34,064 nucleotides of DNA from Gammaproteobacteria bacterium. GTDB taxonomy: Bacteria; Pseudomonadota; Gammaproteobacteria; SZUA-152. The stretch spans positions 1-34,064 of the forward strand of contig JAKISS010000030.1 of the NCBI GenBank assembly GCA_021648485.1, in the 5' to 3' direction. A program made the translations under genes and the position numbers. This document shows positions 1,845 to 3,916 of the stretch, piece after piece (position 1 is the first letter of the stretch; every line of letters starts with the position of its first letter). The notes below the pieces were generated by a model. That model made no database searches. It was not told the DNA's origin and saw only the letters and a list, made by a program, of their open reading frames with translations.

Positions 1845-1956
1845 GGCTAACGTCAGCAATAACCGGCGTTTTGTAGCGGTGAGAGGCTTGTGCTAGGCTC
1901 TTTTAGCACAAACGAACACTGCGGAAAAACGTCCGAGTTAATTGCTTTTGTTAGGC
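1845..1956 (-). other. attC recombination site 3
   Basis: This site follows the zinc-ribbon/HEPN cassette gene and overlaps its last six codons. On the minus strand it runs from GCCTAAC (1956-1950) to GTTAGCC (1851-1845). The inner hairpin pairs TTGTGCTA with TAGCACAA. The stem sequence is unlike sites 1 and 2, so this cassette probably came from a different source. Confidence 0.82.
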
Positions 1957-2744
1957 CCGTTTTCACTCTGATTTATAATTTTATCTATATGCTCACTACT
2001 TACCGTTTCTAGCTCTAGCGTTGATCCGTTTCCGGATAAGCCGCATACGTTACACGCCCCCATGAAGCTTTCTTTAAAGCCTGGTGTTTTGTCTTTCTCG
2101 CGCTCTATTACACCTTTTAGGCAAAGTGGGCAACGAAGTTGGTATTGAGAAATATAGCCATGTTCTTCTATATCTGTGATTTCACACTCTTGCCAGAATA
2201 ATTTCCCATCTTTTAAAAGCTTATCTCTAACCTTCTCATCAGGAAAATCTGAAAGTCGCGGCGACTTGCAGCCGTTGGCAAAAGTTGCTTCTAAAAGCAT
2301 CATACTTTGTAGGCACACAGATCGGAATAGATCATCATCTGTTGTTACGAAATAGGGATCAATTTTCATTTTCTGCAGGAGGATCATAACTTTTTTATTC
2401 GCCTTTTCTAAATCTAGTTCGTGAGCATAGACGTTTCGGAGTCGGTTTATTGCCACAATATTGCTATAAAGATCTTCCTCTATAATTTCTTTATTATTTA
2501 GATGGTTAACTTTTTTATTAAAAGTCATCCGGTCAATTTTTTCTGCCCCAATACCATTTAGAATTTTATCGAGCCAGTATTCGACATAAAGGTGGAGTGT
2601 TATAACATGGCTTCTGAGTGGATTTGGGTCAAAAATTTCTTCCATCAAATTATCGTACACGCCATCCTCAGGGATCGCATATTTGGAACGCCTAGAATCA
2701 GCCAACATTGCGAACATAACTGGTTTATTGTCTTCCTCCATCAC
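1938..2744 (-). CDS. Integron cassette protein, HEPN-like domain plus zinc ribbon
   Basis: A 268-residue protein that is the first gene of the visible array. The start is GTG at 2744, with AGAGG eight bases upstream; an ATG follows directly. Residues 45-125 are helical and contain INRLRNVYAHEL, giving R103-x4-H108 in an RN-x3-H context that matches HEPN ribonuclease domains well. Residues 205-234 hold two CxxC pairs (C205/C208 and C231/C234), a zinc ribbon that may bind nucleic acid. The stop codon lies inside attC site 3, so the cassette recombination box encodes part of the C-terminus. HEPN proteins with extra nucleic-acid-binding modules are common in toxin-antitoxin and phage-defence loci. 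That role here is inference; no partner antitoxin is seen in the same cassette. Confidence 0.75.
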   Translation of the reverse strand: MMEEDNKPVMFAMLADSRRSKYAIPEDGVYDNLMEEIFDPNPLRSHVITLHLYVEYWLDKILNGIGAEKIDRMTFNKKVNHLNNKEIIEEDLYSNIVAINRLRNVYAHELDLEKANKKVMILLQKMKIDPYFVTTDDDLFRSVCLQSMMLLEATFANGCKSPRLSDFPDEKVRDKLLKDGKLFWQECEITDIEEHGYISQYQLRCPLCLKGVIEREKDKTPGFKESFMGACNVCGLSGNGSTLELETVSSEHIDKIINQSENGPNKSN

Positions 2745-2826
2745 AACGTTTTCCTCTTTGCCATATATTCGTTTCCAGAAGGAGCGTACGGATGCCCCGA
2801 CACATTAACACTGCCACGTTCGAGGG

Positions 2827-2833
2827 GCCTAAC
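2827..2833 (-). other. Upstream cassette junction core site
   Basis: On the minus strand this is GTTAGGC, the core crossover sequence expected at the upstream end of the first cassette. It could be the R' box of an attI site or of an attC site lost from upstream. No matching hairpin partner is visible at higher coordinates, which slightly favours attI or a remnant. Confidence 0.45.
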
Positions 2834-3226
2834 TTATTAGTATCAGGCACATTCGCCCGGTTACCCAGTGGTATTGAGCGAAGAATCAGGCAAGTTTACC
2901 TGATAACCACAGAAGACCGGTCAATTTTCCCTGATAGTAGATATTGAGGGGCTTTCAGGCATATCTGCCTGTTATTTTATCAAAACTCGATTTCCAGAAC
3001 GTTGCCCATTTCAACACAACATTCCGGCACTCTCATAAACAAGCCCTTCCCTCTCCCTCGCCTCCACAGCGTTACAAATTCCATGCGCATTTATACCACT
3101 CTTTTTCAAGAAACCCTCTCTCATTAGTATTTTGCACGTAAAACAGGTCTCTTTTTGTATATCGGGCATATAAAATGTACAAAAATCAGGCAAAAATAAA
3201 AAAGACTCTGACTCCTTTAATGCTTT
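2834..3226. repeat. Gene-free stretch with four related palindromes
   Basis: No convincing gene lies between the cassette array and the HTTM gene. Four imperfect palindromes occur at 2843-2864, 2886-2907, 2916-2937 and 2955-2976. They resemble TCAGGCAnnTnTGCCTGA (second copy: tcaggcaagtttacctga). Partial copies may occur at 3142, 3164 and 3186. They could be operators for a dimeric regulator, integrase-binding sequences beside an attI-like site, or decayed repeats. The minus-strand sequence just after the HTTM stop (GGAGTCAGAGTC followed by T-rich sequence, about 3190-3218) may serve as a weak terminator. Confidence 0.5.
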
Positions 3227-3916
3227 TCAGCCCACCATAATAAAGCGTGATTGAAACCAGAGTATGGATGGATAGGCGGCGATCCATATCCAGAAAAATC
3301 GATTCAAGCCAAACAGGCAGGCATTGGCAAAATGAAAGCTTGCGGCAATAATCAGTGCGATAATCAGGCTGATACGTGACAATAATAACAACGGAAAAAT
3401 CAATTCAAAAATCATCACTCCCCAGGCCATGACAAAAAGTATGCGGGATGATTTCGACCATTGTCGTAAAGATTCACTGACGGGATAGGTGGAAAACTGA
3501 AAAACATCACATAAGGCGCGACCACTTCGCCATTCCGGGTTTATTATTTTTACCCAGCCTGAAAAAAAATATGAAAAAACCAACTGTAAAGCGAGATAAC
3601 CAAAGGCCATTTCCTGCCAGCGTTGTGTGGGGGCGATATATACCAGACACAGGCAAAACAGGATTAATAAACTCATGCGGTCAGAGCCGCCATTGTAGGG
3701 GCCTTGAAAACGGTGCAGCATTGCCAGTCCTAATAAAAACAACAAGATCGCAACCCAGGTGGTTTGAAAACCGATCATCAGTAATATCGCTAAAACAAAA
3801 CGCGGTATAAACAGGTGTCGTTCGTTTGCAAAACGCGTGAAGTGTTCGATGCTTTGTTGGGCAAAGGCAAAGCCCAGTAAAATTTCGGTCAGCCGAACGG
3901 CATCATCGAAGTTCAC
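3227..3916 (-). CDS. HTTM (gamma-carboxylase-like) membrane protein
   Basis: A 229-residue polytopic membrane protein with about six hydrophobic segments. Signature stretches are YFFSGWVKIINPEWRSGRAL and FHFANACLFGLNRFFWIWIA. These are typical of the HTTM family, the membrane domain related to vitamin K-dependent gamma-glutamyl carboxylase. Bacterial HTTM proteins are poorly characterised, and the substrate cannot be read from sequence. The start overlaps the upstream gene by four bases (ATGA), so the two are translationally coupled. It is the last gene of the run that begins with sdhC, so it is probably co-transcribed with succinate dehydrogenase genes, at least in part. Confidence 0.75.
   Translation of the reverse strand: MNFDDAVRLTEILLGFAFAQQSIEHFTRFANERHLFIPRFVLAILLMIGFQTTWVAILLFLLGLAMLHRFQGPYNGGSDRMSLLILFCLCLVYIAPTQRWQEMAFGYLALQLVFSYFFSGWVKIINPEWRSGRALCDVFQFSTYPVSESLRQWSKSSRILFVMAWGVMIFELIFPLLLLSRISLIIALIIAASFHFANACLFGLNRFFWIWIAAYPSILWFQSRFIMVG

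Follow-up and report, generated by a model that had tools for sequence, protein, structure and literature searches.

Organization of the cassette array

The window, that is, the whole stretch of 34,064 nucleotides analyzed here, contains a cassette array with a G+C content of 39%, compared with 49% elsewhere in the window, and all features of the array described below lie on the minus strand. The cassette under study extends over 982 bp from one G/TT crossover to the next (1851 to 2832), is bounded by the cores GTTAGGC (2833-2827) and GTTAGCC (1851-1845), and holds one ORF only. This ORF (1938 to 2744) ends with TAA at 1940-1938 and encodes 268 amino acids counted from a GTG codon or 267 from the ATG one codon later (2741-2739), the latter being the likelier start. 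Its attC occupies 1845 to 1956 (112 nt), the bottom strand of which folds (DNA dG −26.2), with R′′ GCCTAAC and R′ GTTAGCC, and on the other side lies an attI-like head (2827 to 2999) that ends in the core GTTAGGC and is a dispersed repeat. The attC, the attI-like head, and the one-ORF unit between integron cores bear out the mobile cassette proposed in an initial annotation of this DNA.

The attC sites of the window were detected with a looser pattern, a stricter first pattern having found none. An arm-pairing score tried for attC separated poorly (score 9 in 3 of 24 downstream, 0 of 20 upstream, and 0 of 120 shuffled sequences) and was rejected. A covariance model of attC, R1, was built from seven sites of the source genome and run on 60 loci, comprising 33 loci of the dispersed repeat (L082 and L112 representing one copy), 18 loci from HEPN relatives, and 9 others, the last of which gave no attC at E ≤ 0.5.

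Two further cassettes follow in the window, and in both the ORF ends just ahead of its attC. The second (968 to 1828; attC, 852 to 967) encodes a DUF5655/NucS-like protein with matches below cut-offs, perhaps a nuclease, relatives of which occur on 14 plasmid records. The third (233 to 841; attC, 108 to 228) encodes a protein with the stretch IRCGILHQGET, in which the R-x4-H (IRCGILH) is conserved in three plasmid relatives (L036-L038), and from its sequence it could possibly be a second HEPN-like protein of the same array.

Sequence evidence for a HEPN domain

The cassette protein carries RNVYAH (R103-N104-x3-H108, encoded at 2421 to 2438), a predicted catalytic motif, and four cysteines forming two CxxC pairs (C205, C208, C231, and C234), as the initial annotation had described them. 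The significance of these patterns was assessed by shuffling the protein 100,000 times. RN-x3-H appeared in 1,766 of the shuffles, CxxC-x8-40-CxxC in 156, and the two together in 1. The looser Rx4-6H alone was found in 52,839, and thus this motif by itself cannot define a HEPN protein.

Pfam DUF4145 (PF13643) matched residues 70-116 with an E value of 4e-4, and the protein failed membership of this family because the score of 20.8 bits falls below the gathering score of 23.1. A Pfam E6 match (E 0.049) and the PADLOC matches PDC-M16A and Aga (E about 0.006) were far too weak and were discarded, and none of the PADLOC defence models rose above noise. Close homologues were detected neither in plasmids and phages by tblastn, nor in viral contigs by single-protein or alignment scans, nor among relatives of the order. 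Scanning genome contigs with the cassette protein yielded one distant relative, in Rhodobacteraceae HLUCCO18 (identical to L008), and single-protein searches of whole genomes gave, besides the protein itself, weak matches only, in 2 of 368, 1 of 397, and 1 of 23 genomes. Two candidates were dropped, L003 because, on inspection by eye, it runs across MreB/MreC-type genes and L009 because stops interrupt it. The weak matches led to small single-domain proteins (L002, L008, which is identical with L010, and L013-L015), and a profile of these together with the cassette protein, A4, matched 16 genomes, counting the source genome, out of 398 from the phylum.

An independent profile was built without the cassette protein from 14 of 17 relatives, omitting L039, a member of A4 already, as well as the incomplete L044 and L054. 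The cassette protein scored 46.1 bits against this profile and kept 19.9 bits with RNVYAH masked, while the best of 20,000 shuffles reached 8.3 bits. R103, N104, and H108 are each present in 14/14 of these relatives, an acidic residue stands at the position of E55 in 14/14, and H51 is found in 11/14. Conservation of R103 and H108 was the check that the initial annotation had proposed, and it turned out positive; the 14 relatives were gathered with profiles that included the cassette protein, so the motif occurs in all of them partly because the profile rewards it.

In profile searches of the PDB, HepS of the Salmonella Gifsy-1 prophage (PDB 9oij and 9oik) ranked first both with A4, which includes the cassette protein (E 1.3e-6, followed by Csm6 at 1.4e-3), and with A7, which does not (E 1.1e-7). 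A direct single-sequence comparison of the cassette protein with HepS gave nothing, and the relationship was seen by family profile only. HepS is likewise a HEPN bundle, a single protein of about 212 amino acids whose H105 belongs to the motif aligned to RN-x3-H108; an HepS-H105A protein has been deposited, and the title of 9oik names the lambda J tail tip as the partner to which HepS is bound. The two differ in that HepS is a prophage gene whereas ours is a cassette gene, and the match spans the HEPN part only, with no ribbon seen in the aligned part of HepS. Our literature search found no paper describing HepS.

Predicted structure of the HEPN domain

Residues 1-170 were modeled with AlphaFold (AF2) from seven sequences, namely the cassette protein, L010 from genome contigs, and L057-L061 from viral contigs. 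The model had a pLDDT of 66.7 and a pTM of 0.61, with blocks of 75-91 over residues 41-120, and R103-x4-H108 was placed at the end of helix 90-108, which fits the HEPN position (end of helix 3 or beginning of the following loop). VIA-align returned Z scores of 12.7 for the mannitol repressor MtlR (3brj), 12.2 for 6kcr, and 11.6 for HepS (9oij), with deviations of 2.7-3.2 Å over 125-130 residues. Ranks 6-25 were mostly HEPN toxins, Csm6, Cas13b, and other HEPN-clan folds, the HEPN toxins having Z scores of 7-9 and the first clearly unrelated fold 5.7. The HEPN matches to this medium-confidence model stand clearly above background, yet they remain inside the range, Z scores below about 13, which VIA-align warns may be unremarkable among helical bundles. 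Foldseek listed YggD, MtlR, and HepS first, all at E values above 0.001 (best, 0.062), and hence gave no PDB match at E ≤ 0.001.

The predicted fold of residues 1-170 is therefore, with medium confidence, the helical bundle of HEPN type that the initial annotation had expected, and its HEPN-like assignment is backed by the independent profile, the PDB sequence profiles, and the fold. We conclude that the protein very probably has a HEPN fold, with the domain at about residues 27-158 (2271 to 2666).

Since MtlR, the best fold match, is named as a mannitol repressor, RNase activity does not follow from the fold. Instead, the protein could be a noncatalytic regulator of MtlR type that uses its HEPN fold, with help from the ribbon, to bind another protein or a nucleic acid, and the top fold matches, MtlR itself and the MtlR-HPr complex (6kcr), fit such a role. 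Against it, the cassette protein retains R103, N104, H108, and the acidic residue, whereas the motif is kept in only about 60% of MtlR-type proteins according to the table of Anantharaman et al. 2013 (PMC3710099). MtlR differs further in that no ribbon was seen in it, and the cassette protein has no match to the MtlR family PF05068. We consider the regulator reading unlikely, and the cassette protein is probably an active, metal-independent RNase.

The putative C-terminal ribbon

The cysteine pairs form a zinc-ribbon-like stretch, CPLC-x22-CNVC (2043 to 2132), a sequence pattern consistent with a zinc ribbon. The two CxxC knuckles of the zinc ribbon named in the initial annotation are present, and no Pfam zinc family reached its cut-off for the C-terminal stretch. 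A model of the whole protein from its single sequence was unusable (pLDDT 34.4), which leaves the ribbon without a model. CxxC is absent from 17/17 HEPN relatives. Zinc-ribbon fusions of DUF4145 are tabulated in PMC3710099.

The stop codon within attC

As the initial annotation had stated, the stop lies inside attC; TAA at 1940-1938 begins 16 nt into the 112-nt site (nucleotides 17-19), and the last residues of the protein, PNKSN, are encoded by attC. On this ground it had been suggested that rearranging the cassettes could alter the end of the protein. In recombination the GTTRRRY core is cut after its first base (PMC8876359), which places the crossover of this cassette between 1851 and 1850, 87 nt downstream of the stop codon. 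The portion of attC that codes for the tail thus travels with the gene, insertion and excision leave the tail unchanged, and tail variation is ruled out for normal integrase action. Stops inside attC also recur in unrelated cassettes, being present in a KAP NTPase cassette and the first C102 cassette of the same genome as well as in the HEPN relatives L014, L041, and L046. A variable tail produced by rearrangement is accordingly extremely improbable, and the stop inside attC is ordinary and incidental.

An attI-like repeat ahead of the cassettes

The repeat at 2827-2999 has matches in 13 of the 24 genomes from the order, as many as 11 of them in a single genome, and one copy in the source genome is alike to that of the window up to about 3195. 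Thirty distinct copies were aligned, three further matches being dropped for lack of the 3′ end. All ten positions from −14 to −5 are conserved in 29-30 of 30 copies, conservation remains at 26-29 of 30 through GTTA and then falls to 17/30; in the core, GTT is present in 25/30, the strict GTTRRRY in 10/30, and a pyrimidine at base 7 in 24/30. The copies occupy distinct places in the source genome and its relatives, each with a different gene behind it, and, among copies whose flanking sequence extends far enough, most have an ORF beginning ~10-60 nt after the repeat. With R1, an attC at E < 1e-4 was found downstream on the same strand in 11 of 33 repeat loci, or in 10 of 32 when the window, whose attC is part of R1, is excluded.

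Further copies include those at L070, L071, L069, L101, L112, L116, and L130, and at the first six of these a decayed, divergent integrase lies on the upstream side. One of the six belongs to the source genome (contig C69), and the gene that follows it (L082:239-784) may encode a secreted amidase effector resembling Tae4. In genome G749 an open integrase frame (C39:7934-8887) is located 144 nt from a repeat copy. No integrase remnant was detected at E ≤ 1e-3 in window positions 2700-3400, and no integrase gene is present on the window's contig, so that the array is not a complete integron with an integrase beside attI. The source genome has two integrase genes, on contigs C12 and C102, and neither has a copy of the repeat core beside it.

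The integrase remnants upstream of copies point to relic integrons instead of a dispersed mobile element, and the latter identity was dropped. The simplest reading is that the repeat is the surviving attI region of many integrons in which the integrase has decayed or been lost. A literature search on dispersed attI or attG and CALIN, in which subscription journals were thinly covered, gave no entry whose listing describes such copies. A bolder reading holds that these form a distributed integron, in which conserved attI-like platforms at many chromosomal sites, their own integrase decayed or gone, are still filled in trans with single defence-type genes by integrases elsewhere in the genome, the cassette studied here, first in line at one such platform, then being a self-contained phage sensor and killer with the ribbon as its sensor; we regard this as quite unlikely.

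HEPN proteins as recurrent cassette cargo

R1 detected an attC at E < 1e-3 in three loci of HEPN relatives (L014, L041, and L042), and weaker sites, attC-like by eye, were present in L046 (E 0.0034) and L056 (E 0.031). Thus 5 of 18 HEPN-relative loci, two of them weak by score, adjoin attC, indicating that HEPN proteins of this group recur as cassette cargo in several genomes. The sites of L042 and L056 resemble Vibrio repeats.

Such cargo has precedents. Anantharaman et al. 2013 (PMC3710099) describe an integron HEPN family, the "Integron cassette HEPN" family (PDB 3jrt), whose members, like our protein, are carried on integron cassettes. 3jrt is absent from both the sequence and the fold matches of our protein, an absence that weighs neither way. 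The HEPN-ribbon cassette gene is a new example of an already known kind.

In the C12 array of the same genome, a 315-amino-acid protein has a HEPN-like motif (RN-x2-LH) followed by a C-terminal ribbon (CPSC/CIAC), as in the cassette protein; motif and cysteines are conserved in 6/6 aligned members, and relatives occur on 44 plasmid records. It was rejected as a homologue because it showed no significant profile similarity. It also differs in being part of a two-gene unit (L020:4127-5757), with a TauD/TfdA-like gene as partner, whereas our cassette is single-gene. A TauD/TfdA gene precedes the HEPN-like/ribbon gene in 4 of 5 plasmid loci examined, and the plasmid pairs adjoin AbiV/AbiH, endonuclease/UvrD, or BrnT/BrnA genes; we regard the pair as a candidate defence unit. 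The first cassette of the C12 array, L020:1878-4040, encodes a PifA-like KAP NTPase (PADLOC, 1.7e-79) with its stop within attC. The C102 array contains BrnT/BrnA-like and HicA/HicB-like genes read by eye, and in the BrnT/BrnA-like pair at L019:3274-3814 (also by eye) the last ~14 residues of the second protein are encoded by attC, through most of the site.

Proposed function and implications

We tentatively favor, with a slight lean toward its being correct, a single-gene cassette serving defence or abortive infection, the product of which would be a HEPN ribonuclease that belongs to the MtlR/HepS-like group and bears a zinc ribbon at its C-terminus. Under this proposal the protein would rest inactive in the uninfected, unstressed cell. 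HEPN proteins usually act as dimers. Upon infection or stress, the presumed trigger, R103 and H108 would cut RNA without a metal; RNA cutting would stop translation, and the population would be protected. The ribbon, with its putative zinc, may grip RNA or sense the trigger. As the cassette holds one ORF, there is no partner gene.

A solo HEPN gene in an integron, the PifA-like and toxin-antitoxin-like genes on other arrays, and a structural relative whose PDB title (9oik) has it attached to a phage tail tip together point to phage defence, and whether the gene serves phage defence or abortive infection we hold to be evenly poised. About 10% of V. cholerae integron cassettes were anti-phage, according to PMC12409362. 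The protein could alternatively be a stress or dormancy toxin of toxin-antitoxin type, a HEPN RNase that slows growth under stress or stabilizes the array and is restrained by an antitoxin elsewhere or by its own ribbon. This was proposed for integron HEPN proteins by Anantharaman et al. 2013 (PMC3710099) and agrees with the toxin-antitoxin-like genes of the C102 array; however, HEPN-MNT toxin-antitoxin systems have an adjacent nucleotidyltransferase antitoxin gene, whereas the one-ORF cassette has no partner and Pfam identified no nucleotidyltransferase in the neighboring cassettes. We consider a dormancy toxin rather unlikely.

The cassette adds a HEPN-plus-ribbon architecture to integron cargo, which fits the recent view of integrons as stocking phage-defence genes, and links the HEPN proteins of integrons with the HepS/MtlR fold group, which has a solved phage-sensing member. 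The scattered attI-like platforms would matter more than the cassette, as a testbed for integrases acting in trans on relic platforms, and they may show how integrase-less arrays arise.
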